IMG/VR virus record: IMGVR_UViG_3300044630_000609
Span: 1 to 25,845 of that record
Source: a virus
DNA: 25,845 bases
Direction: 5' to 3' (one strand)
Positions 1,354-19,168 of the stretch are shown piece by piece (position 1 is the stretch's first letter; each line of letters opens with the position of its first letter). Position numbers and translations under genes: made by a program. Under the pieces are notes generated by a model. It was not told the origin of the DNA. It saw only the letters and a list, made by a program, of their open reading frames with translations, and made no database searches.

Positions 1354-1436
1354 TGATTATGTATTCAACTCAAGTTTTCGTCTATACACAGCGACAGATC
1401 GTTGTACTTTTAACAGGATTTTCCCCTAGGAGCTAT

Positions 1437-2132: not shown

Positions 2133-2136
2133 TCTA

Positions 2137-2165: not shown

Positions 2166-2171
2166 AACTAG

Positions 2172-3152
2172 ATGTTTGATATTCTATCAATAATTCCCGG
2201 TAAGAAAAAACTCACTCAAGGTGGTTGGCAAAGCTTTAATGCTGTGTGCTGCCATCATCGTGGGCACAAGACCGACACTCGCAGTCGAGGTGGTGTAATC
2301 TTTGACGGGCAAACTAATTGGTCATATCATTGTTTTAATTGTGGGTTCAAGTGTGGGTTTACATTAGGTAAGCGTTTATCAAAGAATACACGACAGTTAC
2401 TAATATGGTCTGGAGTTGATGATACACAAATTAGCAAGTGGAGTTTAGAAAGTTTACAACAAAAAGATATACTAGACTTTACACAGCCTAAGAAGAAAGT
2501 TAAGATTAAGTTTAATGAGCACAAGTTACCCGAAGATGCAGAACTACTTGATAAAAATAATATATTACACAAAGTATATGTAGACTATCTAGAAGCAAGG
2601 GGTATAAGTAGTAGTGAATATCCTTTCATGGTCACTCCCAACGAATCAAGTCGCATGGGAAATCGCATCATCATCCCCTATACATACAAAAACAAGATTG
2701 TTGGTCACACAAGTAGGTTCTTAGACAATAAGATTCCGAAATATATCAACGAACAACAACCTGGTTATGTATTCGGTTATGATTTTCAACAACCTCAACA
2801 AAGTGTAACAATACTAGTCGAAGGCATCTTTGATGCATTGAGTCTAGGTGCTTGTGCATTAACTCATAATACGATTAATGATGACCAAGCAGAACTACTA
2901 TCACAACTTAACAGACAAATCATTTTCGTTCCCGACCGTGATAAAACAGGATTCGATTCCTGTGAGAGAGCTATTCAATTAGGCTATAGCGTCAGCATCC
3001 CCAATTGGGAAAGTGACGTAAAAGATGTTAATGATGCCGTTGTCAAATATGGCAGACTACCTACACTACTCAGTATATTACAGTCTGCTACAATGAGCAA
3101 AATTAAAATAGAAATACAAAGGAAAAAAATTGCGAAACAAAACGGATTCTAA
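2172..3152 (+). CDS. gp61: DNA primase (DnaG/T4 gp61 type, zinc-binding and TOPRIM)
   Basis: This primase makes RNA primers for lagging-strand synthesis with the helicase encoded next to it. The N-terminus shows a zinc-binding segment: Cys/His cluster CCHH at residues 26-29 and CFNC at 54-57. A TOPRIM domain follows, with LVEGIFDA (E217, D221) and VPDRDKTG (D255, D257), the acidic metal-binding residues, then a DVNDAV segment typical of primase TOPRIM ends. At 326 aa it is near the T4 gp61 length and lacks a separate helicase-binding domain as long as that of DnaG; the basic C-terminal tail may fill that role. The ATG at 2172 has no Shine-Dalgarno sequence but sits exactly at the predicted transcription start. 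It overlaps the helicase gene by 23 nt, which suggests coupled expression. Confidence 0.9.
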   Translation: MFDILSIIPGKKKLTQGGWQSFNAVCCHHRGHKTDTRSRGGVIFDGQTNWSYHCFNCGFKCGFTLGKRLSKNTRQLLIWSGVDDTQISKWSLESLQQKDILDFTQPKKKVKIKFNEHKLPEDAELLDKNNILHKVYVDYLEARGISSSEYPFMVTPNESSRMGNRIIIPYTYKNKIVGHTSRFLDNKIPKYINEQQPGYVFGYDFQQPQQSVTILVEGIFDALSLGACALTHNTINDDQAELLSQLNRQIIFVPDRDKTGFDSCERAIQLGYSVSIPNWESDVKDVNDAVVKYGRLPTLLSILQSATMSKIKIEIQRKKIAKQNGF

Positions 3153-4590
3153 GAAGCAGATTGATTATACACCAGAAGTACAAAAACTATTTTTAAGAAT
3201 GATGATGACTAACGCTGAGTTATATACTCGGGTTATGAACATTATGAATTCAGAAAACTTTGACAAAAGTTTGCGACCAGTCGCAGATATGTTCAAAGAA
3301 CACACAGACAAATATAAAGTATTACCTGATGTAAATCAGATTAAAGCAGTGACAGGGGTAGAGATTGAACCTATTCCTGAAATGAGCGAAGGACACAATG
3401 AATGGTTCTTTGATGCATTTGAATCATTTACTAAACGACAAGAACTAGAACGAGCTATTCTTAAAGCGGCAGACTTGCTTGAGAAAGGTGACTTTAGTCC
3501 TGTAGAAAAACTAATCAAAGATGCAGTGCAGATTAGCTTACAACGAGACATGGGTACAGATTACTTCTTTGACCCTAAGGGTCGTATTAACAAATACTTC
3601 AATGCAGGTGGACAAGTAAGTACAGGCTGGCCACAGATGGATCGTATCTTGTATGGCGGTATGAGCCGAGGTGAACTCAACATTTTTGCAGGTGGTTCTG
3701 GTTCAGGTAAGTCACTTGTTATGATGAACATTGCATTGAACTGGTTACAAGCAGGTATGAGCGGAGTCTATATCACACTAGAACTTTCAGAAGAACTAAC
3801 ATCATTGCGTACTGATGCTATGTTAACACAGATGGGTACAAAGTCAATTCGTAAAGATATTGACACAACCGATCTTAAAGTTAAGATGGTAGGTAAGAAG
3901 TCTGGTAAGTATCGTGTTAAAGGATTGCCTGCACAAAGTAATGTGAATGATATTCGTGCTTACTTGAAAGAGGTACAGATTCAAACAGGTATCAAGATTG
4001 ACTTTGTTATGGTTGACTACTTAGACTTGGTTATGCCTGTATCTGTTAAAGTTAATCCTAACGACCAGTTCATCAAAGACAAGTATGTCGCAGAAGAATT
4101 GCGTAACTTAGCTAAAGAAATGGGAATCTTATTAGTTACAGCTAGTCAGTTAAATCGTAGTGCGGTTGATGAGATTGAGTTTGACCATAGTCACATTGCT
4201 GGTGGTATCAGTAAGATTAATACTGCTGATAACGTGTTTGGTATCTTTACAAGTCGTAGTATGCGTGAACGTGGAAAGTATCAGATTCAATGTATGAAGT
4301 CACGTAGTTCGACTGGTGTAGGTATGAAGATTGACTTGGATTATGACATTGAAACAATGCGTATTAGTGATAGCGATCCTGACGGATATGCGGATCAGCA
4401 AGCAAAGTACAGGCCTGCTCCTAGCCCGACTGATATTATGAGTAAATTAAAGCCACAATCAACATTATCATCGTCAGAACCTATTATTGACCAAACGACA
4501 GGTGAGATTATAGAACCGGAAAACAAGCGTATTATAGCAGATGTTCAGAGTAGTAAACTGAAGTCTTTGCTTAATTCATTAAAGAAATAA
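3130..4590 (+). CDS. gp41: Replicative DNA helicase (DnaB/T4 gp41 family)
   Basis: This is the hexameric 5'-3' helicase of the phage replisome and the partner of the primase. The N-terminal helical domain (about 1-130) is followed by a RecA-like ATPase core: Walker A GGSGSGKS at residues 188-195, Walker B DFVMVDYLDL at 291-300, and a TASQLNR segment typical of DnaB motif H3. The 486-aa length fits gp41-type helicases. The start is a TTG at 3130, supported by AAAGG 7 nt upstream and by the YTPEVQKLFLRMM segment, which belongs to the N-terminal domain; the next ATGs (3199 on) would cut into that domain. The last 60 residues (Ser/Pro-rich, then a basic helix) probably form a flexible tail that contacts primase or a loader. 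The family is certain. Confidence 0.95.
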   Translation: MRNKTDSKKQIDYTPEVQKLFLRMMMTNAELYTRVMNIMNSENFDKSLRPVADMFKEHTDKYKVLPDVNQIKAVTGVEIEPIPEMSEGHNEWFFDAFESFTKRQELERAILKAADLLEKGDFSPVEKLIKDAVQISLQRDMGTDYFFDPKGRINKYFNAGGQVSTGWPQMDRILYGGMSRGELNIFAGGSGSGKSLVMMNIALNWLQAGMSGVYITLELSEELTSLRTDAMLTQMGTKSIRKDIDTTDLKVKMVGKKSGKYRVKGLPAQSNVNDIRAYLKEVQIQTGIKIDFVMVDYLDLVMPVSVKVNPNDQFIKDKYVAEELRNLAKEMGILLVTASQLNRSAVDEIEFDHSHIAGGISKINTADNVFGIFTSRSMRERGKYQIQCMKSRSSTGVGMKIDLDYDIETMRISDSDPDGYADQQAKYRPAPSPTDIMSKLKPQSTLSSSEPIIDQTTGEIIEPENKRIIADVQSSKLKSLLNSLKK

Positions 4591-4603
4591 TTATTGCTGT
4601 TAG

Positions 4604-4611
4604 AATAAATA
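4604..4611 (+). promoter_or_regulatory. T4-type late promoter box
   Basis: AATAAATA followed by CTATTA, matching the CTATTA after the minus-strand box at 24685-24692. It lies 16 nt before the ATG at 4628, with TAGGAT as ribosome binding site between the two. Confidence 0.6.
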
Positions 4612-4627
4612 CTATTAGGATAATTAT

Positions 4628-4876
4628 ATGCAAAAACAAACTCGCAGCCTGCTACAGGAATTAGAGGCTATCGGTAATAACCGTGATACAAATCATATCA
4701 TTGAAAGCCGTGGCCACAACATTATCACTAGTGCAATTAATCTGCTAGAAATGATTAATCATCACTACACACCTGAACAGGCAGCAGTTTTAGAACGAAA
4801 ATTGCTACATGCTATCAAAAGCAAGGATCAAACTAAATTTGCCAAATCTTTAAGGAAAAATCGTGAAATTGAATGA
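4628..4876 (+). CDS. Small helical protein of unknown function
   Basis: The 82-aa product is predicted from composition to be mostly helical and charged, with no cysteine, signal or membrane segment. It begins MQKQTRSLLQELEAIGNN; segments such as HNIITSAINLLEMI and EQAAVLERKLLHAI have the heptad-like spacing of a helical bundle. AGGA stands 7 nt before the ATG, and a T4-type late box is just upstream. Its end overlaps the next gene by 14 nt, so the two are probably translated together. The late promoter and the neighbouring long unknown gene suggest a virion or assembly role, but this is inference. Confidence 0.72.
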   Translation: MQKQTRSLLQELEAIGNNRDTNHIIESRGHNIITSAINLLEMINHHYTPEQAAVLERKLLHAIKSKDQTKFAKSLRKNREIE

Positions 4877-6461
4877 ATTTAAACAAAGAACAAAGAACCG
4901 TAAGTTAAACGAGTCACAACTGTCTGAATTAGACATGAGTGACGTTATAGGTAACTACGGAGCAGCCGGCGTAAAAACGATAGCTGATAAAATCAACCCT
5001 TTTAGCAAAGGTTCCGGAAAGATCAGTGTTAAAGATAAAATGGCCAGTGAGATGTTTGTTAAAGACTTCATAGGTCGTGCTAGTGAAGATTTAGCTAGAG
5101 GTATAAAAGCTGGTTTAGTAAATCCAAAACCAGCTACAGCTCCTGAACCAGAAAAAGCTGATCCTTATAAGCCGGGTGATAAAGCGACAACGCCAACAAC
5201 GCCAACAACGCCAACAACGCCAACAACGCCAACAACACCGACAACACCAGCAGGGCCCGATAATAGAATTGATCCTACAATGGATCCGGAAAAAACAACA
5301 GCGGCATCAACATCGTCCGGCGCAACAGCACCCGGGCCTGCATCATTGGCAGCGGCAGGAGCAAATGCTCAAAAACAGACTAATCAGAACTTAAATGCTT
5401 ATGTACAAAATGCATCCAAAACTTTAAATTCTGCTACAAGCCCGCAACAGAAGATGGCTCTAACTAAAGAGTTAGTTAATTTTATGGCTGACCGCAAATC
5501 TTATCCTGAATGGAATAATGCAGTAGCAACAGTACAGCAAGTTATTAAGCGTGGTGGATTAGATGCTAATTTTGCTAACTCTGCAATGAATAGAGTTAAA
5601 GCCGGTCAGACTATGGCAGAAGCATGGCAAATATATGCTATTAACAAGTTGCTTGAAGCAGTTAGTATATCATGGCGTGATTTAGGTCTAGTAGCATTAA
5701 ACGAAAGCAAAAATTCTTGGAAAGTAGTTGATGCAAAATATCATAAACTAAACAATATATTTGAAAGCATTTTGGAAGCAGACGGTGAGTACCCTGACAC
5801 TATCAGTTCTTATCTACAAAAAATGTTCAAAAAATATACAAAGGGTATTACAGTAGATCCTGCTACAATTAATCGTGTGAAACAAATTGCCGACCAAGCA
5901 GAAGCAAACTATAATAGTATGAATCCAATGAAGCGTGGAGCGAGACAAGAACTTGCCCAACTAGGTAATATGGCATATGCTCTATCATATAGAGATAGTG
6001 AAGGTTATAAGCACGATAAATTTAGTGCGACTGATGCACAATCTACACCTCAGGCAGGTGCCGGTGATACTGGTGGCTTAGATGCGTTGAGAGGTAGAAC
6101 AAGCGCAGATGCAGGTGCTACATCATCTACAGCACCATCTACTGCTAGTGCAGAAGAAATAGCACCTGCTACTACTCAAATGATTAATCTTATCAATAAG
6201 ATGACAACAGCAGAGTCAGGTGACGATCTTACAAAGATTGTAAAACTATCATTGCAAAAATTGTATAAAGCAGACAAAGCCGCATACAGTGCATTAATGA
6301 AAGAATTGCGCGGTAATGTTTCTGCTCCTAAGCAAGAAAAACCTGCAAGCACATCATTTGTTCCTCCATCAGCACCAGCGCCAGCACCTGCTCCAGCTAC
6401 TAAGCCTGCAGTAACTGCTGAAAGTAAAATTAAAACTTATAAAAAGTGGGGACAAAAGTGA
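4863..6461 (+). CDS. Large phage protein with Thr-Thr-Pro repeat linker, unknown function
   Basis: This is a 532-aa product starting at GTG 4863, with AAGGA 6 nt upstream. The N-terminus MKLNEFKQR resembles the MKLNDF start of the product at 9116. Residues about 109-129 form seven TTP repeats, followed by an Ala/Thr/Pro-rich low-complexity stretch to about residue 165. Two helical blocks follow: about 170-270, and about 275-400 with ISWRDLGLVALNES, then another Ala/Pro-rich linker and the short basic end KIKTYKKWGQK. The arrangement of folded blocks joined by flexible linkers fits a structural or scaffold-associated protein. No enzymatic motif is visible. It is between a small unknown gene and the KxDG protein, both overlapping it. 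Confidence 0.75.
   Translation: MKLNEFKQRTKNRKLNESQLSELDMSDVIGNYGAAGVKTIADKINPFSKGSGKISVKDKMASEMFVKDFIGRASEDLARGIKAGLVNPKPATAPEPEKADPYKPGDKATTPTTPTTPTTPTTPTTPTTPAGPDNRIDPTMDPEKTTAASTSSGATAPGPASLAAAGANAQKQTNQNLNAYVQNASKTLNSATSPQQKMALTKELVNFMADRKSYPEWNNAVATVQQVIKRGGLDANFANSAMNRVKAGQTMAEAWQIYAINKLLEAVSISWRDLGLVALNESKNSWKVVDAKYHKLNNIFESILEADGEYPDTISSYLQKMFKKYTKGITVDPATINRVKQIADQAEANYNSMNPMKRGARQELAQLGNMAYALSYRDSEGYKHDKFSATDAQSTPQAGAGDTGGLDALRGRTSADAGATSSTAPSTASAEEIAPATTQMINLINKMTTAESGDDLTKIVKLSLQKLYKADKAAYSALMKELRGNVSAPKQEKPASTSFVPPSAPAPAPAPATKPAVTAESKIKTYKKWGQK
5187..5249 (+). repeat. Tandem 9-nt repeat encoding (TTP)7
   Basis: Five exact copies of ACAACGCCA followed by two variant copies (ACAACACCG, ACAACACCA), all in frame, encode seven Thr-Thr-Pro units. 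Short exact tandem repeats like this change copy number easily by slippage, so linker length may differ between close relatives. Confidence 0.95.
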
Positions 6462-7609
6462 ACTTAACTGAATCTTTAGCTTTATTATCAAGCAAAATAG
6501 ATCAGTTGTCTACTGTGGTTGCAGAGGCAAAAGGTCACTTAGACCATCCTGAAGATTTGATATTTTTAGATGGTACTCAAGGTGCAAATCGTGCAGTCCA
6601 AGCTTCAGTTGATACAGTTAAAAACCCCGCAACAGTTACAATCAAGTGGGATGGATATCCTGCATTAATTTTTGGTCGTGGTGATAACGGTAAATTTAGT
6701 ATTATGGACAAACATATGTTCAATAAGAAAGACTTATCAGGTAGACAAGTGTTCAGTCCTGAGCAATTTGTTCAGTACGATAGAGACCGCGGTGTTGACC
6801 GATCAGGATTACATCAGTTAATCGCAGAAATTTGGCCTGGTCTTGAAAAGTCAGACAGAAGTAAAGGTTACTATTGGGGTGACTTACTATTCAGTCAGCC
6901 ACTGCAAGACCAAAACGGTATGTACAAGTTCAAAGCAAATCCTAACGGTATCGCATACACAGTTGAAGCTAACAGTGAAGTAGGACAATTATTTAAAGGC
7001 AAACAAGCCGCTATTGTTGTACATCAATTCATTCCTCCAAATGCCGCAACCACAGATGAAGCAAGTCCCTTAGATGGTGGCATTGGTAGTTTAAAAAATA
7101 ATAGCAATGTAGCTATTGTCCCTGCTAAAATGCCTATCACTCCTAAACTAAAGATAAGCAGTAAATTAGTTAACAAAGCACAATCTGATATTAAAAAGTA
7201 TGGTCCTGCTGTGGATCAGTTATTGAACACTGCACCGCAAGCGTCTACTACATTTAGAGGATTGTTCACAACTTATATCAATAAAAAAATTGTTGCTGGT
7301 GATTTGAATAATTTAGTAGATGGCTTTATGGAATACTTCAACAGTCGTCCAATGACTGATGCTATGAGAGCAAAGTTGACTCAGCACCTAGAAGCCAATA
7401 AAGCAGGACTAGTAGGAGCATTCACTATCTGGGCTAGTTTGTATCAATTGAAAATGGCTATTGTGGACCAACTCAATAAAGCCGCAGAAGCAAGTCCTGT
7501 CAAAGGCTATCTACAAGACGGTACACAGACCCAAGAGGGTTTTGTCAGTAACGGACTCAAATTTGTAGATAGAATGGGCTTTAGTCGCCAAAATCTAGCC
7601 GGAAGATAA
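6458..7609 (+). CDS. KxDG-motif nucleotidyltransferase-like phage protein
   Basis: This product of about 383 aa matches a family common in T4-like marine phages (as I recall, the DUF6267 type). The striking element is TIKWDGYPALIFGR (lysine codon at 6644), which has the K-x-D-G form of motif I of covalent nucleotidyltransferases (DNA/RNA ligases and capping enzymes). A possible motif III-like segment is YYWGDLLF, and KLKISSKLV could stand for motif V; these are weaker. The C-terminal 150 residues are helical. Ligase or nucleotidyltransferase activity is inference from the motif; the fold alone may be retained. GTG 6458 is preferred, with G-rich GGGGA just upstream and a GTGA overlap with the preceding stop; GTG 6446 is the longer alternative. 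A weak terminator follows. Confidence 0.7.
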   Translation: MNLTESLALLSSKIDQLSTVVAEAKGHLDHPEDLIFLDGTQGANRAVQASVDTVKNPATVTIKWDGYPALIFGRGDNGKFSIMDKHMFNKKDLSGRQVFSPEQFVQYDRDRGVDRSGLHQLIAEIWPGLEKSDRSKGYYWGDLLFSQPLQDQNGMYKFKANPNGIAYTVEANSEVGQLFKGKQAAIVVHQFIPPNAATTDEASPLDGGIGSLKNNSNVAIVPAKMPITPKLKISSKLVNKAQSDIKKYGPAVDQLLNTAPQASTTFRGLFTTYINKKIVAGDLNNLVDGFMEYFNSRPMTDAMRAKLTQHLEANKAGLVGAFTIWASLYQLKMAIVDQLNKAAEASPVKGYLQDGTQTQEGFVSNGLKFVDRMGFSRQNLAGR

Positions 7610-7613
7610 CCTC

Positions 7614-7630
7614 AAATCCTGGATTTTTTT
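7614..7630 (+). terminator. Weak intrinsic terminator
   Basis: AAATC (7614-7618), loop CTG and GATTT (7622-7626) form a short AT-rich stem followed by T residues to 7630. It lies just after the KxDG gene and before the next late box. The stem is weak, so termination may be partial. Confidence 0.45.
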
Positions 7631-7638
7631 GCATTAGG

Positions 7639-7646
7639 CATAAATA
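7639..7646 (+). promoter_or_regulatory. T4-type late promoter box
   Basis: CATAAATA followed by TTATTATG. The predicted transcription start is the A at 7652, about 40 nt before the ATG of the small virion protein, which has its own AAAGGA ribosome binding site. Confidence 0.65.
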
Positions 7647-7691
7647 TTATTATGAATCAGTAGGATTCAAAATATTTAAAGGAATTTTAAA

Positions 7692-8081
7692 ATGGCACAA
7701 TTTACACGTGTAAACGGCGACTTTCAACCGTTAATGAACTATGATGCAGATGCATACACAAACGCAGGCGTTAATGCTATCACTTCTGGTGCAACTGTAC
7801 AACCAGCTGGTCCTAAACTAGCTTTTGGTACAGTTACTTTCACTGGTGCGGCTACTCCAACTGGTGCTGATCTTGCAATCGCTTTCCAAACTATAGAGCA
7901 ATTGTCTACAGTTATGATGTACGAGTTCACTGAAGTTGGTGACAACACAGATACATTAGCACTTGCTATCTATCCAGTTGGCGCATGGGACTTCACAAAC
8001 GCAGGAAGTCTTGACGTAGCATTGACAGCAGCCTTAGGTTATGCTGTTACAACAGCGGCTACAGCTACATTCACAAACTAA
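7692..8081 (+). CDS. Small putative virion protein
   Basis: The 129-aa product is rich in Ala, Thr and Gly and poor in charged residues (MAQFTRVNGDFQPLMNYDAD at the start), with alternating hydrophobic and polar stretches that suggest a beta-rich particle protein such as a decoration or fibre-associated protein. No catalytic residues, signal peptide or clear membrane segment are seen. It forms a single-gene unit: a late promoter box at 7639-7646, AAAGGA at 7678-7683, and a strong terminator at 8102-8128. Such a dedicated late unit suggests high expression. The virion role is inferred from composition and promoter context. Confidence 0.7.
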   Translation: MAQFTRVNGDFQPLMNYDADAYTNAGVNAITSGATVQPAGPKLAFGTVTFTGAATPTGADLAIAFQTIEQLSTVMMYEFTEVGDNTDTLALAIYPVGAWDFTNAGSLDVALTAALGYAVTTAATATFTN

Positions 8082-8101
8082 TCTAATTAGTTTTGAGAAA
8101 C

Positions 8102-8128
8102 AACCCGAGATTTATTCTCGGGTTTTTT
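8102..8128 (+). terminator. Strong intrinsic terminator
   Basis: AACCCGAGA (8102-8110), loop TTTAT and TCTCGGGTT (8116-8124) form a perfect 9-bp stem, with T residues running to 8128. It ends the transcript of the small virion gene. Confidence 0.92.
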
Positions 8129-8134
8129 ACGGCT

Positions 8135-8142
8135 ATTAAATA
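8135..8142 (+). promoter_or_regulatory. T4-like late promoter box
   Basis: ATTAAATA, then GCAGT, then the ATG at 8148. The box differs from GATAAATA at two positions, but its position is the same as in other late units: the predicted start is the A of the ATG. No Shine-Dalgarno sequence lies between box and ATG. Confidence 0.45.
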
Positions 8143-8147
8143 GCAGT

Positions 8148-8606
8148 ATGAGTTTTAAAATTTCTTGCTACACACTATTTGATATCACCGATACTGGAGT
8201 GTTGAACCGTAGTAAACCTGATCCAGAGTTAGAACTGCGTGACTGGTTATTAAAAAGAAATACTCAATGCAATTTTGATACTATCTTGCAAGCTATTTCT
8301 CTACGTTCTCAACCTGAAATACTAAAACTTCCTGAATTAATAAAAATTAAATTTAATGAGTTTCAAGACTTTGGATTTCTGTTTGAACAGCAAGATAGTG
8401 AAGAATACAATTGCTGGACCTTTGATTTTGAAATACAACATCTTAGTGTATTTGATAACGGCATATCTGAGCTAGGTGCATTATATGATGATTGTGATGG
8501 TATACCTATGTTAAAAGTAGGAAACGAGTGGGATAAACTTCCCGAGTTTTTAGATGCGTCAGACGAACTCAAAAATATATATTTTAAGATTACACAATAT
8601 GATTAA
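8148..8606 (+). CDS. Conserved phage protein of unknown function
   Basis: The 152-aa acidic product begins MSFKISCYTLFDITDTGV and is rich in Phe, Leu, Asp and Glu. The pattern SKPDPELELRDWLLKRNTQ followed by FEFQ-like hydrophobic strands suggests a compact alpha/beta fold, but no catalytic motif stands out. I recall similar unnamed proteins in T4-like marine phages but cannot assign a role. There is no ribosome binding site; the ATG lies 5 nt after a late-type box, so it may be read from a leaderless mRNA. It overlaps the next gene by 8 nt through the shared sequence ATGATTAA. Confidence 0.7.
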   Translation: MSFKISCYTLFDITDTGVLNRSKPDPELELRDWLLKRNTQCNFDTILQAISLRSQPEILKLPELIKIKFNEFQDFGFLFEQQDSEEYNCWTFDFEIQHLSVFDNGISELGALYDDCDGIPMLKVGNEWDKLPEFLDASDELKNIYFKITQYD

Positions 8607-10161: not shown

Positions 10162-10992
10162 ATGAAAAAACTAATGGTATGTGGGTGTAGCTTCAGTGCA
10201 CCTAGTCATAAACCAGAATATGCCAATACAGCGTGGGGAGAAGTCTTAGCAAAAAAACTAGGATGGGATGTGCAAATACTAGCACGACAAGGCTGTAGTA
10301 ACGGTGGCATAAGAATTCAAATAGATGAAGTAATCAGACAAAAGCCTACATTTGCTATTATAGTTCCTACTAACTATGATAGGATTGAAATACCTGTACA
10401 AAAAGATAAATTAAATTTCAGTAATAAAAATCTTTGGCAAAAGATACAAGAATTTACTCAACATACCAATGATCCTACTCTAATCGGGTATGATCCAGCA
10501 ATAGGCTTAGACAATATTAATTACAAAAACAATGACTATAGAATGATAAGCGAGACTATACATAGTTTGGTTACTGATTGTCCTCACTATTATAGAAAAG
10601 AATCCATTTCAACTAACACGCAGAATGCAGTCAAAGAATATCTCAACAATTTATACGATCCAAATTGGAAACATCAGACTGACAAATGGATCATACGTGA
10701 CGGTTTGACCCAATTGAAATATCATAATATTCCGTTCTTAGTTGTACCTGGCACATTATTATGGAGTTCAGTTGAAGAACTAATAAAAGACTTGACTATT
10801 GTATTAGATGAAAAATATCTAATAAAAGATTTAACATTGACTCCCTATGGCATTCAAGATATCTATCCGTTTAACGGAAAAGAATCTAACGATTATGAAA
10901 AAGACCCCGGCTATCATACTAGTCCTACTGGACAAGAATTTTTAGCTGAGACATATTATCAACTAATTAAGGATCGTTGGGATTTAGTCTAA
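10162..10992 (+). CDS. SGNH/GDSL-hydrolase-like protein
   Basis: The 276-aa product has the block pattern of SGNH hydrolases. GCSFS at residues 8-12 stands for the GDS block, with S10 as candidate nucleophile. ARQGCSNGGI (around 41-50) supplies the block II glycine, PTNYDRIE the block III-like Asn, and DPGYHTSPTG (D248, H252) the block V Asp/His near the C-terminus. Members remove acyl groups from lipids or glycans. It is just upstream of an Fe-S carrier gene and the glycan island, so a role in de-acylating a surface glycan is possible, but no substrate is shown. There is no signal peptide, so the protein acts in the infected cell or in the particle. It begins directly after the preceding stop. 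Confidence 0.68.
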   Translation: MKKLMVCGCSFSAPSHKPEYANTAWGEVLAKKLGWDVQILARQGCSNGGIRIQIDEVIRQKPTFAIIVPTNYDRIEIPVQKDKLNFSNKNLWQKIQEFTQHTNDPTLIGYDPAIGLDNINYKNNDYRMISETIHSLVTDCPHYYRKESISTNTQNAVKEYLNNLYDPNWKHQTDKWIIRDGLTQLKYHNIPFLVVPGTLLWSSVEELIKDLTIVLDEKYLIKDLTLTPYGIQDIYPFNGKESNDYEKDPGYHTSPTGQEFLAETYYQLIKDRWDLV

Positions 10993-10995
10993 ATA
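10988..10995 (+). promoter_or_regulatory. Possible weak late promoter box
   Basis: TCTAAATA overlaps the end of the SGNH gene and lies 4 nt before the iscA ATG. It has two mismatches to the T4-type late box, so it is listed only because of its position. Confidence 0.25.
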
Positions 10996-10999
10996 CAAG

Positions 11000-11320
11000 A
11001 TGATTAATCTAACCGAAAAAGCATCTAGCAAAATTAAACAAACTCTTGCAAAAAGAGGTAGTGGATTGGGAATTCGAATAGGTGTAAAAACAACCGGCTG
11101 TTCTGGATTAGCCTATGTACTTGAGTATGTAGACAAAGCCAATGATACTGATATTGCAGTAGATTGTAATGGTTGTGTGTTATATGTCGATCCCAAAAGT
11201 TGCCCCTACGTTCAGGGCATGGTTGTAGATTTTGTACGTAATGGCTTAAACGAGGGATTTGAATTTAATAATCCAAATGAACGAGACCGTTGTGGTTGCG
11301 GGGAAAGCTTCAGGGTTTAA
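11000..11320 (+). CDS. iscA: A-type iron-sulfur carrier (IscA/HesB family)
   Basis: This 106-aa protein is nearly the length of E. coli IscA (107 aa) and keeps the whole family pattern: TGCSGLAYVLEY in the centre (C34) and RCGCGESF at the end (C98 and C100), the three cysteines that hold Fe or an Fe-S cluster. Three further cysteines (C56, C59, C68) are extra. A-type carriers hand clusters to apo-enzymes. Phages are known to carry hesB/iscA-like auxiliary genes; here it may support a phage or host Fe-S enzyme during infection. It starts 7 nt after the SGNH gene stop and ends directly at the next ATG, so it is co-transcribed with the glycan genes. Confidence 0.93.
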   Translation: MINLTEKASSKIKQTLAKRGSGLGIRIGVKTTGCSGLAYVLEYVDKANDTDIAVDCNGCVLYVDPKSCPYVQGMVVDFVRNGLNEGFEFNNPNERDRCGCGESFRV

Positions 11321-12205
11321 ATGGATTTGGTTACTGTTGTATGTAATAGAGATTACCAACAAATGTTATTACAAGCTGAGAGCATACAAAAATTCTTAGC
11401 ACCATGCAAACACTGGGTCATAGTAAATGACGAGGTTCCGGATGTTTTATTCTGGCAGAATAATTTATCCAAATATTACACTAAACATGAATTAATAGTA
11501 ATTCCATATACTGATTTATTTGAAAATACCAACAACTATATAGGACATTATACACAGCAAGTTTGCAAGTTATTAATTGTTAAATTAATCAAGGATGATT
11601 ACTTAATATTGGATGCAAAAAACTTCTTTGTTAAGCCAACTAATACAAATGAATGGGATAATATTCTAGGGTCCGGTAGGGTAGAATTTTTAGAACTTCC
11701 CCCTATTGAAGAATTTAATTATCCACACTTAATTAAATTACCTGATATATGGAAAATGACAGTTGCTATCTACAAAGAAGTATTGCATTTAGAATTACCT
11801 AAATTCTTTTTAGGACCATTAACACCTTTTAAAATTCAAGCCGATGTATTATTAAATTATGAAGATTTAGATTTGTTATATGACTTACTAAGCACATGGG
11901 AATATGAGAGAGAACTTCATACTAACATTGGTCCTAGTGAGTTTATATTCTATTCATTTTTATGCAAAGAGTTAATACAGATAAACAAGAATGTCACATT
12001 AATTGCAATTGAAAATAAGCATCATACATGCTGGAATACTTCTAGTATAGAAAGTAATCCAAACTTTTTAAAAGAATATATAGATGATAATAAAAATATC
12101 AAAGTTTTAGGGTTGCATCACAAATTTTTAAAATCTTGTAACACTGAGCAAATTAATAGAATAAATGATTGGTTATGCAAAATGTCATTTACTTTTAAAT
12201 ATTAA
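11321..12205 (+). CDS. Glycosyltransferase-like protein (DUF6492 type), copy 1
   Basis: The 294-aa product begins MDLVTVVCNRDYQQMLLQAE and contains SIQKFLAPCKHWVIVND and KDDYLILDAKNFFVK, a pattern like the GT-A nucleotide-sugar-binding half of DUF6492-type glycosyltransferases, where the LILD segment stands at the position of the metal-binding DxD. The second half (from TPFKIQADVL through SEFIFYSFL) is also shared with the next gene. It is the first gene of the glycan island and begins directly after the iscA stop. Transfer of a sugar to a glycan or to a phage/host surface structure is inferred. AT-content is higher than in neighbouring replication genes, which could indicate separate acquisition. 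Confidence 0.68.
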   Translation: MDLVTVVCNRDYQQMLLQAESIQKFLAPCKHWVIVNDEVPDVLFWQNNLSKYYTKHELIVIPYTDLFENTNNYIGHYTQQVCKLLIVKLIKDDYLILDAKNFFVKPTNTNEWDNILGSGRVEFLELPPIEEFNYPHLIKLPDIWKMTVAIYKEVLHLELPKFFLGPLTPFKIQADVLLNYEDLDLLYDLLSTWEYERELHTNIGPSEFIFYSFLCKELIQINKNVTLIAIENKHHTCWNTSSIESNPNFLKEYIDDNKNIKVLGLHHKFLKSCNTEQINRINDWLCKMSFTFKY

Positions 12206-12213
12206 GAATTCCA

Positions 12214-13095
12214 ATGGATTTAGTAACAGTTACTTGTAATAGAGATTTAACGGCAATGATATTGCAAGCTGAAAGTATTCAAAAGTTTTTGAATCCATGT
12301 ACCCATTGGGTAATAGTTAATGAAAATACACCAGACTTAGGCCAATGGCATAAAGCATTGTCACCGTTTTATATAAATCATAAATTAAAATTATTACCTA
12401 GATTATATGATGCACCTGAAGATTATTCTGATATAGATGCTAAATGGGGATGGAGGATGCAACAAATTCAAAAGCTGTATGTTGCTACTATATTAGAGGA
12501 TGACTATTTGATACTAGACAGTCGAAATCTTTTTATTAAAAATACTGATTTAGAAGAATTTAGAGAAATACAAGGGTCTGGTATAATTCAAAGACTTGAT
12601 GATTCTAAATTTAATAATCCTAGACATCAGGCATATTTAGAAAAATATTGTAGTAAATTAGGTATAGATAAACCTAAATTTGCATTGTGTGAATTTACTC
12701 CATTTAAAATTGATTTAGACACTATAAAAAACTTTAAGGATTTATATAATGTGCATGAATATTTGATATCGGAGCCATATATACACACAAATCTAGAATC
12801 ATCATCTGAATTCATTCTTTATTCAATGTTGATACCAAATATTTCGACCAACTTTAAAGAAGAAATTAAATGGGAAACGATACAAAATTTTCCAGTAAAA
12901 GAAGATAATATTTTATATGCTAAAACATTTCTACAAATGACTAAAGCAATCAATAACAAGAATATTAAGGTATTGAAATTTGATCGGTCATTAATAGATA
13001 ATCTTAAACAATCTGATTTAGACATACTAAATAATATTCTTCAAGAATTAAGATTCTCTTTTAGATTTTACCAAACACATGAAAAAAATAGATGA
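12214..13095 (+). CDS. Glycosyltransferase-like protein (DUF6492 type), copy 2
   Basis: This 293-aa product is a clear paralogue of the preceding one: MDLVTV-CNRD, ILQAESIQKFL-PC-HWVIVN, DDYLILDSRNLF, TPFKIDLD and SEFILYS line up in order. It adds the segment WGWRMQQIQKLYVATIL, which matches the GW--QQ--KL motif of DUF6492-type proteins better than copy 1 does. The two genes therefore come from tandem duplication followed by divergence and probably use different acceptor or donor sugars. Its 3' end overlaps the next gene by 17 nt. Glycosyltransferase function is inferred from fold pattern and neighbours. Confidence 0.68.
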   Translation: MDLVTVTCNRDLTAMILQAESIQKFLNPCTHWVIVNENTPDLGQWHKALSPFYINHKLKLLPRLYDAPEDYSDIDAKWGWRMQQIQKLYVATILEDDYLILDSRNLFIKNTDLEEFREIQGSGIIQRLDDSKFNNPRHQAYLEKYCSKLGIDKPKFALCEFTPFKIDLDTIKNFKDLYNVHEYLISEPYIHTNLESSSEFILYSMLIPNISTNFKEEIKWETIQNFPVKEDNILYAKTFLQMTKAINNKNIKVLKFDRSLIDNLKQSDLDILNNILQELRFSFRFYQTHEKNR

Positions 13096-13765
13096 TATAC
13101 TGTTTATCGTACAAGCACGATTAAACAGTCAACGAGCTCCATACAAAATGCTTAGACCCTTTAAGGGTACTAACTTGTATGAAATATGTTTGGATAAAAT
13201 CAAACAAACTAAAATACCAAATACAAACTTTTATGCGAGTATATATGAACCCGAATTGATTGAAGTTACCGCTAAAAAGGGTTTACAATACTATCATAGG
13301 TCAATTGAAAGTGCAAACAATGATAACAGTTTGGAACTAATTTATGAGTGGCATGACAAGTTTCCCAAATACAAATACTGTGTTTTGATAAATGCATGTA
13401 ATTTATTTTTAAAGCCTGAAACTATTGATAAATTTATTGATGCGTATTGCAATAGTGAACATGATGGTATGTTTGCTGTTATGCCAAAGAAACAATATTA
13501 CTGGAATAAAGAGGGTGAGTTAATAACTCCCTGGCCTTCTTCATGTAACATAATGAACACAAAAGAAGTTGAAGTTACATTAGAAGCCGCACACGTTCTT
13601 TATGCAGGTAGACTAGATTTAATAAGTCAAGGATATTGGATGGGTAAGCCACCGTACACTAAGAACAATCCTGCGTTATTTGAAATAGACGAATTTGAAT
13701 GTTTAGATATTGATTACGAATGGCAGTTTGACTTGTACACAAATTATTGGAAAAATAATGATTAA
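13079..13765 (+). CDS. CMP-nonulosonate synthetase-like cytidylyltransferase (NeuA/SpsF-like)
   Basis: The 228-aa product starts with FIVQARLNSQRAPYKMLRPF, the N-terminal nucleotide-binding signature of CMP-sialate/CMP-KDO synthetases and SpsF-like proteins (consensus I-P-A-R-x-x-S-x-R-x-x-K), and ends with ECLDIDYEWQFDLYTNYW, matching the LDIDTPEDW-type end of NeuA. Such enzymes activate a nine-carbon acidic sugar with CTP for transfer. The gene directly precedes and overlaps (8 nt) a NeuB-like synthase gene, which strongly supports this reading. The length is close to that of bacterial NeuA. The exact sugar (sialic, legionaminic or pseudaminic type) cannot be told from sequence alone. Confidence 0.72.
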   Translation: MKKIDDILFIVQARLNSQRAPYKMLRPFKGTNLYEICLDKIKQTKIPNTNFYASIYEPELIEVTAKKGLQYYHRSIESANNDNSLELIYEWHDKFPKYKYCVLINACNLFLKPETIDKFIDAYCNSEHDGMFAVMPKKQYYWNKEGELITPWPSSCNIMNTKEVEVTLEAAHVLYAGRLDLISQGYWMGKPPYTKNNPALFEIDEFECLDIDYEWQFDLYTNYWKNND

Positions 13766-14576
13766 TATTATTGCTGAGATAGGAATCAATCACAACGGTG
13801 ACATAGATGTTGCTTTTGATATGATTACTAAAGCTAAGAACGCCGGTGCTACACATGTGAAGTTTCAAAAAAGAAACCCTGATGTATGTGTTCCTGAGGA
13901 TCAGAAAAGTAAACCAAAAAGTACGCCATGGGGTCAAATGACTTATTTGGAATATAAACAATTAATGGAATTTACAAAAGAGCAGTACATGCGTATTGAT
14001 GAACATTGTAAAAAATTAGACATTGAATGGTTTGCTAGTATCTGGGATGTTGATAGCATCAACTTCATAGCTGACAATTTCAATCACACAATTGTAAAGA
14101 TACCTAGTGCTAAAGCCACTGATATGACATTACTTACACTTTGCAAAGAAAAATTTAAAACAGTTATCGTAAGTACAGGCATGTGTACTTTACAAGAAAT
14201 TGAAAACATTGTTCAATTATTCAAAGATGATAAAGAAAAACTTGTACTATTACATTGTGTAAGTGCTTATCCAGCTGGTCTAGATCAATTGCATATGGAT
14301 ACACTAGATTACTTAAAGCAGTTTGGTTTTGATATAGGTTACAGTTCGCATGAAACTGAGTTTATACCTGCTGTAGCATCAGTCTATAAAGGTATCAAAT
14401 GGTTAGAGCGTCACTTTACATCAGATAAAACAATGTGGGGCACAGATCAATCTGCAAGTTCTACACCTGATGAGTTCCAACATATTGTAGAAGGTATCAG
14501 ATTATTAGAAAAATCATTAGGTAAACGCACTGATGTATTAGAGTGTGAAAAAGACAATCTTAAAAAAATGAGATGA
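13758..14576 (+). CDS. neuB: NeuB-like nonulosonate (sialic acid-type) synthase, without SAF domain
   Basis: This enzyme family condenses an N-acyl-hexosamine with phosphoenolpyruvate to make sialic-acid-type sugars. Visible are IIAEIGINHNGD at the N-terminus, GATHVKFQKRNPD, IPSAKATD, VIVSTGMCT, HCVSAYPA, GYSSHE and ERHFT, i.e. the full TIM-barrel active-site set. The product is 272 aa from ATG 13758 (the frame opens at 13710, but that part lies inside the preceding gene). Typical NeuB is about 340-350 aa with a C-terminal SAF/antifreeze-like domain; that domain is missing here, and the next gene begins at once (ATGA overlap). The SAF domain normally covers the partner active site, so activity or specificity may differ. 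Confidence 0.88.
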   Translation: MINIIAEIGINHNGDIDVAFDMITKAKNAGATHVKFQKRNPDVCVPEDQKSKPKSTPWGQMTYLEYKQLMEFTKEQYMRIDEHCKKLDIEWFASIWDVDSINFIADNFNHTIVKIPSAKATDMTLLTLCKEKFKTVIVSTGMCTLQEIENIVQLFKDDKEKLVLLHCVSAYPAGLDQLHMDTLDYLKQFGFDIGYSSHETEFIPAVASVYKGIKWLERHFTSDKTMWGTDQSASSTPDEFQHIVEGIRLLEKSLGKRTDVLECEKDNLKKMR

Positions 14577-15346
14577 AAATAGCAGTCTGTATTAGTGGGC
14601 AGTTACGTAAATTAGAAGAAAATTTAATAGCTACTGCATTCAAAGATTATGATGTAGATTATTACATACATACTTGGGAGCATGAGCTTAACCCCAATTT
14701 ACACTTAATCAAAGACTATTTCCCCAATGCAGTTGTTGAAGTCGAAAAATATGAAGAAGTATTTGATACATGTTTTGATAATGGTAACACTGATGAAAAC
14801 AGATACACGTTTGCACAGTTCTATACTATTTTAAAAAGTCTACGTTTGTGTGCGAACAGTGGAAAAAAGTATGACTTCTATATAAGGTCTAGAACAGATG
14901 TAATATGGCCTATGCATTTATGGCCGGATAGAGTAGTAAATCAATTAAACTTAGATACTAGAGCAATTATTACTAATAGCAGAATGATAAAAAATATAGA
15001 TAGTATTGAATTTACTACATGCGAGATCCCTGTTGTCGCTCTTGGTATTGCTGGTTTAGAAAATAATATGTACGCCTTACGTGAATGGTCTTGGTGTATG
15101 AATCAAACGGCATTAGATACTATTGTTAAATATGATCCTGTTGATATGGTACATGTGGCAAAAAATATTAGGAAAGAAGCACAAACTAATACTGTTCATT
15201 GTACCTTACAAAGCCCGAGTATTTGGGGTAAGATTTTTGAGAATACAAATATGATAATACAAAATACTAGCCAATTCAATACTAAGTTACTGCGTTACTT
15301 GGATAATAAAAAGAAGTACATAGATTTCTACGGAGACATATCCTAA
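14573..15346 (+). CDS. Glycosyltransferase-like protein (SGQLR type), copy 1
   Basis: The 257-aa product begins MKIAVCISGQLRKLEENLIA and contains VDYYIHTWEHELNPN, FAQFYTILKSLRL and YDFYIRSRTDVIWPM. The SGQLR start, HTW segment and R-S-R-T-D motif occur in phage and capsule-locus proteins annotated as glycosyltransferases; the R-x-R-x-D stretch probably binds the sugar nucleotide or metal. The end KYIDFYGDIS is shared with the next gene. It overlaps the neuB stop by 4 nt. No signal or membrane segment is seen. A role in transferring the activated nonulosonate or another sugar is inference from context. Confidence 0.62.
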   Translation: MKIAVCISGQLRKLEENLIATAFKDYDVDYYIHTWEHELNPNLHLIKDYFPNAVVEVEKYEEVFDTCFDNGNTDENRYTFAQFYTILKSLRLCANSGKKYDFYIRSRTDVIWPMHLWPDRVVNQLNLDTRAIITNSRMIKNIDSIEFTTCEIPVVALGIAGLENNMYALREWSWCMNQTALDTIVKYDPVDMVHVAKNIRKEAQTNTVHCTLQSPSIWGKIFENTNMIIQNTSQFNTKLLRYLDNKKKYIDFYGDIS

Positions 15347-16122
15347 TGAAAATAGCTGTATGCGTCAGTGGTCAACTACGTAAATTGGATAAAAATCTAA
15401 TATCAGATGCCTTTAAGGATCATGATGTAGACTATTACGTTCACACCTGGGAGCATGATCTGAATCCCAACTACAATAAAATAAGAAAATATTTTACTAA
15501 TGTAACATATTCCGTAGAAAAGTACGGAAATGAGGATACCTTTGACAACATCGTAAATGACCAACTAGATAATAATAGATACTTGTATGCACAATTTTAT
15601 ACAGTGTATAAAAGCATTAGAATGGCACTAGCATCTAAAAAAAAATATGATTTATTTGTAAGAACACGTGCTGATGTGATATGGCCTATGGAGTATTGGA
15701 CTAATGAAGAATTTGATAAACTGAATGACGAAATAAAAAATACAATGGCAAATGCGATAAAGGAACCTCAAGATGATTTTGATTTTAAAAATAGTGCATT
15801 GCCTATAGTCATAACAAGTATCAATGGAATTTATAATAACAAACTAGTATTACGAGATTGGGCATGGGGGATGAATGGGGCCGCGGCGGCCTTATTATCA
15901 ACAGAAAACTCAGTAGAAGAATTTATGTTGAATATAAAAAATACTAGAAAAATGTTGTCAAGACATGCTGATTATCCTAGAGCGCACAGCCCGGTTGTTT
16001 GGGGGGACATTTTTACACAAATGGGAATATTGATACAAATATCTAATATTTTTAATTGTAGATTGTTACGTTATCCAGAAAATGAGCAAAACTTTATTGA
16101 TGGTTACGGGGACATATCATAA
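15346..16122 (+). CDS. Glycosyltransferase-like protein (SGQLR type), copy 2
   Basis: This 258-aa product is a paralogue of the preceding gene along its whole length: MKIAVCVSGQLRKLDKNLI, HDVDYYVHTWEHDLNPN, AQFYTVYKSIRMA, VRTRADVIWPM, LRDWAWGMN, SPVVWGDIF, LLRYPENE and FIDGYGDIS. Start and stop of the pair overlap by one base (TAATG). The DNA differs at many synonymous sites, so the duplication is not recent. It is the last gene of the glycan island; the next gene has its own sigma70-type promoter. Acceptor and donor are unknown. Confidence 0.62.
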   Translation: MKIAVCVSGQLRKLDKNLISDAFKDHDVDYYVHTWEHDLNPNYNKIRKYFTNVTYSVEKYGNEDTFDNIVNDQLDNNRYLYAQFYTVYKSIRMALASKKKYDLFVRTRADVIWPMEYWTNEEFDKLNDEIKNTMANAIKEPQDDFDFKNSALPIVITSINGIYNNKLVLRDWAWGMNGAAAALLSTENSVEEFMLNIKNTRKMLSRHADYPRAHSPVVWGDIFTQMGILIQISNIFNCRLLRYPENEQNFIDGYGDIS

Positions 16123-16869: not shown

Positions 16870-16896
16870 AGTGTAATATTGAGAAATTACACTTAT
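16867..16896. repeat. 11-bp inverted repeat spanning late promoter and start codon
   Basis: ATAAGTGTAAT (16867-16877) and ATTACACTTAT (16886-16896) are perfect inverted copies separated by ATTGAGAA. The left arm overlaps the late promoter box; the right arm contains the first two bases of the fibre ATG, and the loop holds the only purine-rich ribosome binding candidate. Confidence 0.85.
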
Positions 16897-19168
16897 GGCC
16901 ATTGTACAAATATCAAAGATTCAGCAAAGATCCGGAAATCTAGTTGACCTACCTCAGCTAGATGATGCAGAATTCGGATGGGCGAATGATGAAAAACGTC
17001 TATTCATAGGAAAAACCACACCTAACGAAAATATTGAAGTACTAACTTCATATTCTAATATCAGTTTTAGTCAAATTGATGGTGCTAGTAACGCTAACTT
17101 AAACCTATCTAACACTGCCAATGGGCAAATACTAGGTATTGAAACTAGCGGATCTAATGTTTATATTGTAAACAAAGGTGGTAATCCAGATAATGCTAAT
17201 AGTCCAGGTGGACTAGTAAATTTAGGAAATGTAAGTAATGTAAAAATGTACGGCGGTGCTATTGGCTACGTACTGGAAACGGACGGGACTGGTAATTTAT
17301 CTTGGACTAGTAAAGGTACGATATTAGCTAATGTTCTTGCATTATCTAATGCTACCCCTATTATAATGACAGTTGCCAATACTACACCTTATGTAAATGC
17401 TACTGAGATTACTATTACCGGGGTTCAAGGTAATGCAAATGCTAACGTAAATAGTTTAAACTTTTTTGTGAAACTTGCAGTGGATTATCCAACATCCGGC
17501 AATGTTCAATTATATACTGATTCTGTTTTGTCTACTCCGGCAAACGGCACAAGTCTTACATATACTAACTCACCTAATGCTATAGCAACTACCTCACTAG
17601 CAGGTGGTGGTTCAGGTAATGTAGGTGGGTCAAATACTGCTATACAATTTAATAATAACAATATTTTAGATGGAGATGCTGATTTTACATGGGATTACAC
17701 TACTAATTTATTAGATGTAAATGGTACTGCTAACATCATTAACGTAAATGCAAACGGAAATGTAAGAGCTAATTTACTATTTTCAAATGTGGCAACAGGT
17801 ACCGCACCCATAACAGTATCATCTACCACCAGAGTTGCTAATCTTAATGTAAGTTATGCTAACGTAAGTGATTTTGAAGTAGTCACTACACAGACTACTG
17901 GAACGTTTTATCCTGTATTTGTTAGTGCAAATACAACAGCTAACTATGCACTAGGATCAAACGCTTCCTTCAGATTTAATGCGGCAACTGGTAATTTGAT
18001 AGCAACACTGTTAACTGGTACAGTAACAACGGCTGCTCAACCCAATATTACCAGTGTTGGTTCATTGACTACATTAACTGTCATCGGTAATGCTAACGTT
18101 GGTAACTTAGGTACAGCTGGATTGATAGTTGCTACCGGTAATGTAACTGGTGGTAATTTAACAACAGGTGGTGTCGTAGCCGCAACAGGTAATGTAACTG
18201 GTGGTAATTTAACAACAGGTGGTGTCGTAGCCGCAACAGGTAATGTAACTGGTGGTAATATAACAACAGCCGGCGTAGTAACCGCAACAGGTAATGTATC
18301 TGGATCTAATATTAATACTGCAGGTACAGTAACAGCTAGCCAATTAATTTCAAATGTAGCTATAGGCACAGCACCATTAGTAGTCACATCTACAACACAA
18401 GTTGCCAATTTGAATGTAGCGAATGCCGGACTTGCTACGTATGCAACAACTGCTAATGCAGTTGCAGGCGCTAATGTGTCGGGTCAAGTTGGTAATGCAT
18501 TAGTTGCAGGTACTGTATACACGGCAGCGCAACCTAACATTACCAGTACTGGTACGTTGACTGCATTGACAGTATCAGCTAACGTAGCTACAGGTGGTAT
18601 CAAGACAGATAACTATTATTATGCTAATGGTGTGTCTATTAGTTTTGCAGGATCATATAGTAATAGCAATGTAGCTTCATACTTGCCCACATATACTGGT
18701 ACAGTGGGTGCTACTGTATTAACAACTGGTGCAAATACTACAGCAGGTACAATTACAGGTAATTGGACTTTAACTTCTGGTTCAAAATTAGAAGCGTCAT
18801 ATGCTGACTTGGCAGAATATTACGAGGCTGATGCTATATATGAGCCTGGTACAGTACTTGAGTTTGGTGGCGATAATGAAGTCACTATTGCACAAGATGG
18901 AACAACTAGAGTTGCAGGAGTAGTATCAACTAGCCCGGCATACGCAATGAATGCTGACTGTAAAGGTATTGCCATAGCTATTGCTTTACAAGGTCGTGTA
19001 CCAACTAAAGTTCGCGGTGCAGTACGCAAAGGTGATATGATGGTTAGTGCAGGCAACGGTTTTGCTAGACCATGGAACAACCCGCAAATGGGAACAGTTA
19101 TCGGCAAGGCATTAGAAAACTTTGACGGAATCGAAGGCGTTATTGAAGTCGCAGTCGGAAGATTATAA
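16895..19168 (+). CDS. Tail fibre / fibre-like structural protein
   Basis: The 757-aa product has three parts. The N-terminus (MAIVQISKIQQRSGNLVDLP, then EFGWANDEKRLFIGK) is the attachment module seen in many marine T4-like phage fibre proteins. The middle (about 60-630) is a Gly/Asn/Thr/Val-rich shaft with recurring elements: AAQPNITS-G-LT-LTV twice, S-NVA-GTAP--V-STT-VANLNV twice, and four 17-residue units ATGNV-G-N--T-G-V-A coded by 51-nt repeats. The C-terminus (from SYADLAEYYEADA to the end) is a conserved domain with RVAGVVS, LQGRVPTKV, VRKGDMMV and MGTVIGKALE. It probably contacts the host surface or forms a fibre trimer. A late promoter lies just upstream. Confidence 0.82.
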   Translation: MAIVQISKIQQRSGNLVDLPQLDDAEFGWANDEKRLFIGKTTPNENIEVLTSYSNISFSQIDGASNANLNLSNTANGQILGIETSGSNVYIVNKGGNPDNANSPGGLVNLGNVSNVKMYGGAIGYVLETDGTGNLSWTSKGTILANVLALSNATPIIMTVANTTPYVNATEITITGVQGNANANVNSLNFFVKLAVDYPTSGNVQLYTDSVLSTPANGTSLTYTNSPNAIATTSLAGGGSGNVGGSNTAIQFNNNNILDGDADFTWDYTTNLLDVNGTANIINVNANGNVRANLLFSNVATGTAPITVSSTTRVANLNVSYANVSDFEVVTTQTTGTFYPVFVSANTTANYALGSNASFRFNAATGNLIATLLTGTVTTAAQPNITSVGSLTTLTVIGNANVGNLGTAGLIVATGNVTGGNLTTGGVVAATGNVTGGNLTTGGVVAATGNVTGGNITTAGVVTATGNVSGSNINTAGTVTASQLISNVAIGTAPLVVTSTTQVANLNVANAGLATYATTANAVAGANVSGQVGNALVAGTVYTAAQPNITSTGTLTALTVSANVATGGIKTDNYYYANGVSISFAGSYSNSNVASYLPTYTGTVGATVLTTGANTTAGTITGNWTLTSGSKLEASYADLAEYYEADAIYEPGTVLEFGGDNEVTIAQDGTTRVAGVVSTSPAYAMNADCKGIAIAIALQGRVPTKVRGAVRKGDMMVSAGNGFARPWNNPQMGTVIGKALENFDGIEGVIEVAVGRL
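18137..18340 (+). repeat. 51-nt tandem repeat (four units) in the fibre gene
   Basis: Units start at 18137, 18188, 18239 and 18290. The first two are identical or nearly so, the third differs at several sites, and the fourth is diverged. Each encodes 17 residues of the shaft (GNV-G-N--T-G-V-AT). The gradient from identical to diverged suggests recent duplication at the 5' side. Confidence 0.92.

Follow-up and report, generated by a model that had tools for sequence, protein, structure and literature searches.

A candidate nonulosonate glycosylation cassette in a large T4-related phage

The viral record IMGVR_UViG_3300044630_000609 of IMG/VR, here called the window and analysed over its whole length of 25,845 bases, carries six plus-strand genes that exactly fill positions 11321-16122: GT_A, GT_B, CMPs, NeuB, GT_C and GT_D. 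We read them as a phage cassette for glycosylation with a nonulosonate (NulO), in which the sugar would be made by a 9-phosphate route and capped onto a virion or host-surface acceptor by glycosyltransferases (GTs) of the GT-A fold, and we put the probability of this joint reading at roughly 0.6. In more general terms, a nine-carbon acidic sugar of the sialic acid kind is very probably made, activated and attached to something in the infected cell. The biosynthetic half of this interpretation is well supported at the sequence level, with the profiles and active-site residues of NeuB and CMPs both arguing for phage-directed synthesis and CTP-dependent activation of a NulO.

A first-pass annotation of the same DNA had pointed to six tightly packed, overlapping genes between iscA and a nuclease gene, and every one of these open reading frames (ORFs) is present. 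From iscA through GT_D, the successive intergenic spacings are 0, 8, -17, -8, -4 and -1 bases, and 44 bases separate GT_D from the downstream nuclease gene, an exonuclease (phrog_298, 5e-56). An island of this kind is far beyond chance, and the observation is confirmed as real. No membrane-spanning segment is seen in any of the six proteins, the top 19-residue Kyte-Doolittle mean being 1.41. Recent acquisition was considered on the basis of base composition and is not claimed; the GC content of the island is low (27-33%), but its GC3 (GC at third codon positions) of 0.18-0.28 is near that of the other genes of the phage (0.21-0.37).

The NeuB gene (13758..14576; 272 aa), for which we take the ATG at 13758 as the start (the mechanical ORF begins at a TTG at 13710), encodes a predicted NulO synthase matching the NeuB catalytic-domain profile PF03102 with 220 bits against a cut-off of 22.1 (E 4.1e-65). 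When aligned to the Neisseria meningitidis enzyme (2wqp), the protein keeps the active-site positions E25, K53, Q55, K129, S132, S154, Y186, S213, H215, H236 and D247; the exceptions are T110, which is Ser, E134, which is Lys, and N74, which is unaligned. The catalytic positions are invariant or near-invariant among 49 short phage NeuB homologs, in which the E134 position is mostly Met. The first-pass annotation had named loss of NeuB active-site residues as a finding that would speak against its proposal; both comparisons show these residues retained. The motifs VKFQK, GYS.HE and TMWG(S/T)D presumably recall NANS-type synthases, which we take as a lead only. The protein stops after the barrel, and the Pfam scan found no SAF domain (PF08666) in it; some other phage NeuBs do have this domain. 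The likeness to Neisseria NeuB (1xuz/2wqp) and to PseI (8h2c) thus consists of the PF03102 fold and the catalytic residues, whereas the missing SAF domain, the Lys at E134 and the scores against curated models set the window protein apart. The best NCBIfam model is NeuB_NnaB (TIGR03569), at 218.6 bits vs a cut-off of 399.65, followed by PseI, at 168.9 vs 340.25. These scores are far below the equivalog thresholds for synthases of sialic and pseudaminic acid, so the models do not allow the product to be named.

In the NeuB tree, the window protein falls in a phage-only group (SH-aLRT 99) outside every sampled bacterial group. The phylogeny against bacterial sources that the first-pass annotation had proposed therefore places the phage group but names no bacterial donor, this being a quick tree with long branches built on the 80 best bacterial loci. 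A second, divergent NeuB-family paralog of 250-254 aa, with a weak PF03102 match, is present in two of the phage loci (L006, 10251-11003; L007, 12325-13089), three genes past the cytidylyltransferase gene.

The CMPs gene (13079..13765; 228 aa), which overlaps NeuB by 8 bases, encodes a putative cytidylyltransferase of the CMP-NulO/CMP-Kdo synthetase superfamily (PF02348, 36.8 bits vs a cut-off of 22.6, E 4.8e-9). Across 82 phage homologs, S17, K23, R74 and D212 are invariant and D210 is found in 80, so that the conserved Lys and the D-I-D motif are both kept. Its best solved relative is the mouse CMP-N-acetylneuraminic acid (CMP-Neu5Ac) synthetase (1qwj, E 0.001). These matches bear out the earlier description of one CMP-sugar synthetase-like and one NeuB-like gene. 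Against the CMP-pseudaminate synthetase PseF (TIGR03584), CMPs scores 19.6 vs a cut-off of 205.7. A specific assignment of the product as pseudaminic or legionaminic acid is not supported, NeuB and CMPs being far under the PseI and PseF cut-offs.

The genes around relatives of NeuB point to a route. The bacterial relatives, in 80 loci, are 41-47% identical to it and come mostly from Chloroflexota and Actinomycetota. A HAD protein of the type of KdsC and of the phosphatase acting on the 9-phosphate of ketodeoxynonulosonic acid (KDN) flanks 71 of these 80 loci, a count made without a matched control from other NeuB clades. The flanking HAD domain often lies within a protein that also bears the CMP-sugar synthetase. 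For example, L203 (4643-5941) encodes a protein longer than 400 aa in which a hydrolase domain comes after a CTP_transf_3 domain, and fusions of this kind stand beside SAF-less NeuB in many of the bacterial loci L191-L270. The fusion is reminiscent of vertebrate CMAS. For the HAD of L204, the bacterial row adjoining the larger phage group in the NeuB tree, the best model is KDN-9-phosphatase, at 152 bits vs a curated cut-off of 180. In the phage loci, a small EcbF-like HAD was found in 35 of 45 loci with a SAF-less synthase, vs 10 of 25 others (Fisher p 0.0036, with loci that are not fully independent), and a small HAD occurs elsewhere in the contig of a close relative, G003. The region L271 of that contig (G003:123000-133500) encodes, at 809-6932, a ribulose-phosphate-3-epimerase homolog, a SIS protein, a small HAD and a carbamoyltransferase, as well as a putative nucleotidyltransferase/kinase-like protein with no Pfam match; this sugar-phosphate cluster might supply the NulO pathway with an unusual sugar phosphate.

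Because the synthase family is genetically linked to HAD phosphatases, we favour the 9-phosphate route, inferring it from that linkage. KDN is made from mannose-6-phosphate and phosphoenolpyruvate (PEP), and vertebrate Neu5Ac from N-acetylmannosamine-6-phosphate (ManNAc-6-phosphate) (PMC7845648). In the window phage, NeuB would condense PEP with a mannose-type sugar, most likely a 6-phosphorylated one drawn from the host (mannose-6-phosphate or ManNAc-6-phosphate), and the product would be a KDN/Neu5Ac-type NulO-9-phosphate. The phosphate would then be stripped by a HAD phosphatase, either the host's or one encoded elsewhere in the phage genome, CMPs would activate the sugar to CMP-NulO, and the paralogous GT_A-D would build a short glycan in the cytoplasm and cap it. 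The acceptor could be a virion protein, given the tail fibre genes downstream, or else a host surface glycan linked to a lipid. The epimerase, aminotransferase and acyltransferase that the first-pass annotation had listed as missing steps may be dispensable if the synthase works on a mannose-type sugar already phosphorylated at position 6. Just one of 50 relative records contains a NeuC-type epimerase, a rarity that the 9-phosphate route would account for. The known KDN-9-phosphate/Neu5Ac-9-phosphate pathway (KDN in Bacteroides thetaiotaomicron; NANS, a phosphatase and CMAS in vertebrates) resembles the present case in that KDN-9-phosphatase-type HADs and CMP-sugar synthetases are genetically linked to NeuB in the relatives. 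It differs in that the window NeuB has no SAF domain, the contig has no phosphatase, and the substrate here is a predicted one.

The four remaining genes, which had been described as glycosyltransferase-like, form two paralog pairs: GT_A (11321..12205; 294 aa) and GT_B (12214..13095; 293 aa) are 41% identical, and GT_C (14573..15346; 257 aa) and GT_D (15346..16122; 258 aa) are 46% identical. The first pair shows borderline matches to PF20102 (DUF6492), with 22.8 bits for GT_A (E 5.5e-5) and 24.5 bits for GT_B (E 1.7e-5) against a cut-off of 22.9. The second pair has no Pfam match and falls in phrog_13607 in the PHROGs scan (E 6.5e-12 for GT_C, 6e-9 for GT_D), and an RxRxD motif is conserved in GT_D. 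AlphaFold (AF2) models of GT_B (pLDDT 84) and GT_D (pLDDT 87) have a GT-A fold, and by paralogy the same fold is predicted for GT_A and GT_C. The best match of the GT_B model, covering almost the whole protein, is GlcNAc-1-phosphotransferase (7dxi; Z 15.6, 254 residues, rmsd 4.2), followed by the Stealth protein CpsY (8j2n; Z 14.7, 242 residues), with WbbM (13.8), LARGE1 (12.7) and GT8 enzymes (about 12) lower down. The matches of the GT_D model are more diffuse, with Z of 10-12 to several GT-A families and a Foldseek match to BoGT6a at 2.7e-6. Although the GT_B model aligns with Stealth sugar-phosphate transferases (GNPTAB, CpsY) over 242-258 residues at Z 14.7-15.6, the identity is 7-10% and there is no Stealth Pfam match. 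Membership of GT_A and GT_B in the Stealth family was accordingly rejected, the resemblance being structural only. As modelled, neither the GT_B nor the GT_D matches identify a user of CMP-NulO; GT29, GT42, GT52 and GT80 chains are not among the structure matches listed for the two, which does not by itself show their absence. The earlier description thus holds as far as the GT-A fold, and does not extend to a known sialyl- or NulO-transferase family by sequence. Transfer of the NulO by these genes is not supported as originally put, with none of the four in a known NulO-transferase family by sequence and the GT_A/GT_B pair nearest to Stealth-type enzymes by structure. In other viruses, relatives of GT_A and GT_B were near NeuB in none of 25 loci, and those of GT_C and GT_D rarely so; because such relatives seldom adjoin NeuB, the transferases look like interchangeable parts and not like fixed partners.

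Several points weigh against the 9-phosphate cassette as we propose it. Neither HAD type is found in the window contig, which is a fragment of a phage genome since the window spans the entire 25,845-base record, and a search for KDN-type phosphatases in 16 relative records gave one match, under the cut-off. The phage HADs come from another HAD subfamily than the bacterial ones and may act on other sugars. The window NeuB lacks the SAF domain by which the ManNAc site of the classic enzyme is completed, and the scores of NeuB and CMPs, far below the curated sialic and pseudaminic cut-offs, do not fix the exact sugar. Finally, the Pfam, PHROGs and NCBIfam scans gave no match to GT29, GT42, GT52 or GT80 for GT_A-D.

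The synthase and its activator recur as a pair in other phages. A CMPs query in IMG/VR gave 84 relatives among the contigs, of which 80 were kept. Of the roughly 80 loci analysed, 74, or about nine in ten, also contain an ORF of the NeuB cluster. The closest phage relatives (L006, L007, L008, L010 and L016) have the same CMPs-NeuB order as the window, with a GT_C/D homolog coming next in L006, L007 and L010. In other loci, the order is reversed or a spacer lies between the two, and epimerases, DegT aminotransferases, formyltransferases, GNATs and transferases are found nearby. Used as single IMG/VR queries, the window NeuB and GT_D retrieved nothing beyond a second contig, whose island proteins are identical. 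Among the 50,697 phage records of INPHARED, tblastn with NeuB matched three, and tblastn with CMPs, GT_A and GT_D matched none. The pair looks like a widespread, nearly undescribed trait of unrelated uncultured phages, and not a one-off.

Two of these loci differ at the synthase itself. L008 and L009 are syntenic, with 75-86% nucleotide identity in an alignment that spans the cytidylyltransferase and ends at the NeuB start. In this slot, L008 has a short NeuB (10680-11483) and L009 a 490-aa fusion of NeuB to a D-lyxose-isomerase-like cupin (7110-8579), and the same family of putative transferase follows in both. From the alignment, the gene for the sugar synthase seems to have been exchanged in place. 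As for the transfer step, LR756508.1 (L004), a 484-kb uncultured phage, has seven matches to the eukaryote-type GT29 sialyltransferases around NeuB (best 2.1e-32), several of them in tandem (11253-11885, 13984-14667, 14648-15328 and 15325-16074), where 14 control genomes gave no GT29 family match. Weak CST-I (GT42) matches were found in 5 of 50 relative records. Judged by these matches, the relatives show that phages can carry enzymes of NulO-transferase type.

The acceptor and the benefit to the phage, which might be a block to superinfection or altered adsorption, can be approached through two proposals that we hold about equal, each plausible while falling somewhat short of even odds. In the first, the NulO would cap the lipopolysaccharide (LPS) or capsule of the host during infection or pseudolysogeny, remodelling the receptor and excluding superinfecting phages, with the host giving the lipid carrier, flippase and ligase. 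For jumbo cyanophages, a similar host-surface role of their LPS clusters has been suggested (PMC7824862, section 3.4.10), and LPS biosynthesis proteins are encoded by 76% of PGC_C marine jumbo phages (PMC9123017). The likeness of the GT_B model to capsule-type Stealth phosphotransferases such as CpsY is in keeping with this, as is the synthase swap between L008 and L009, which would be expected under antigenic diversification. On the other hand, we recognised neither a membrane-anchored protein nor a flippase, polymerase or ligase in the window, and the GTs show no link to a lipid carrier.

In the second proposal, the NulO would be placed on fibre or capsid proteins of the virion. All six island proteins look soluble, a tail-fibre-like gene (16895-19168, phrog_19602) lies two genes downstream of the cassette, and the PBCV-1 capsid-glycosylating GT (2p73) is one among many fold matches of GT_D. 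Virion glycosylation also has a precedent in mycobacteriophages (Freeman et al. 2023, as cited in PMC12619734). However, the nuclease gene stands between the cassette and the fibre gene, and the relatives do not keep the pair in a constant place with respect to structural genes.

A different precursor is the next alternative to the 9-phosphate route. In the classic NulO pathway, the synthase would use non-phosphorylated ManNAc, or 2,4-diacetamido hexoses on the way to legionaminic or pseudaminic acid, supplied by the host or by phage genes off the contig. The ranking of the NCBIfam models, with NeuB_NnaB (218.6 bits) first and PseI second, is compatible with it, and DegT aminotransferases, GNAT acetyltransferases, formyltransferases and PIG-L proteins are found in some phage loci, one of which adjoins a UDP-GlcNAc 2-epimerase. 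We nevertheless consider it unlikely, given the SAF-less NeuB of the window, the strong linkage of its clade to HAD phosphatases and the single NeuC-type epimerase in 50 records. Hypermodification of DNA, with the sugar placed on modified bases, is very improbable, for although phage GTs are known to glycosylate DNA and replication genes share the window, the scan of ORFs in this fragment turned up no enzyme of base modification, be it a hydroxymethylase or a thymidylate-synthase homolog.

Glycan clusters are already known in phages, and the NulO cassette extends them without being a separate category. Like the LPS/capsule-type sugar clusters of jumbo cyanophages (P-SSM2; PMC7824862), it is a tight cluster of a sugar-activating enzyme and paralogous GTs in a large T4-related phage. 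In contrast to them, it has only six genes, and where they have NDP-sugar epimerases and dehydratases it has a NulO synthase and a cytidylyltransferase; NAD-dependent enzymes of the latter kinds gave no match in the island in the Pfam, PHROGs and NCBIfam scans, and the jumbo-cyanophage review does not mention NulO genes (PMC7824862). Other phage-encoded enzymes also act on NulO glycans: epaA and epaB of an Acinetobacter prophage are reported to modify NulO on the host capsule (PMC12053666), and phage O-acetyltransferases are reported to act on host-capsule NulO (PMC6586298). Such enzymes alter NulO made by the host, whereas the window phage encodes NulO synthesis and activation. Our searches of the open-access literature turned up no description of a NulO synthase in a phage.

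Taken further, phages of several lineages might make a sialic acid of the KDN/Neu5Ac type by the 9-phosphate route from host mannose-6-phosphate or ManNAc-6-phosphate, activate it, decorate their virions or the infected cell with it and swap the synthase in place so as to alter the sugar, with at least one megaphage using eukaryote-type GT29 enzymes for the transfer; in this full form the proposal is speculative, and we would sooner bet against it. If true, sialic-acid chemistry would be a common viral trait, the compact pair recurring in dozens of uncultured aquatic phages. The cassette also offers a concrete test between phages decorating themselves and phages remodelling the host surface with acidic sugars, and it puts small SAF-less synthases and cytidylyltransferases on offer for enzymology.

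The genes around the cassette had been called a T4-like core. The window does encode T4-related replication and tail proteins, including a primase, a DnaB-type helicase and a tail sheath, but the label is loose, since the helicase is closest to the jumbo phages of the PA5oct group (46-50% identity) and Atu_ph07 (48%). By these sequence comparisons the carrier is a large T4-related tailed phage, nearest to the jumbo phages PA5oct and Atu_ph07. The second contig, IMGVR_UViG_3300042484_002072, has the same gene order, and its island proteins are 100% identical where compared. Two contigs with a close synthase pair also share the core, namely G005 (L010; helicase 53%, sheath 38%) and G003 (L008; sheath 39%).

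Upstream of the cassette, the plus-strand gene at 11000..11320 encodes an IscA-type Fe-S (iron-sulfur) protein (PF01521, 2.9e-20), a phage-encoded carrier whose stop codon abuts the GT_A start and which we count as a neighbour of the cassette. Seven bases further upstream of iscA lies an ORF (10162-10992) for a putative SGNH-hydrolase-like protein with a GCSFS motif and no Pfam match. ORFs of similar look are also near the CMPs/NeuB pair in L007 and L010, and the protein could be a candidate enzyme for O-acylation of the sugar.

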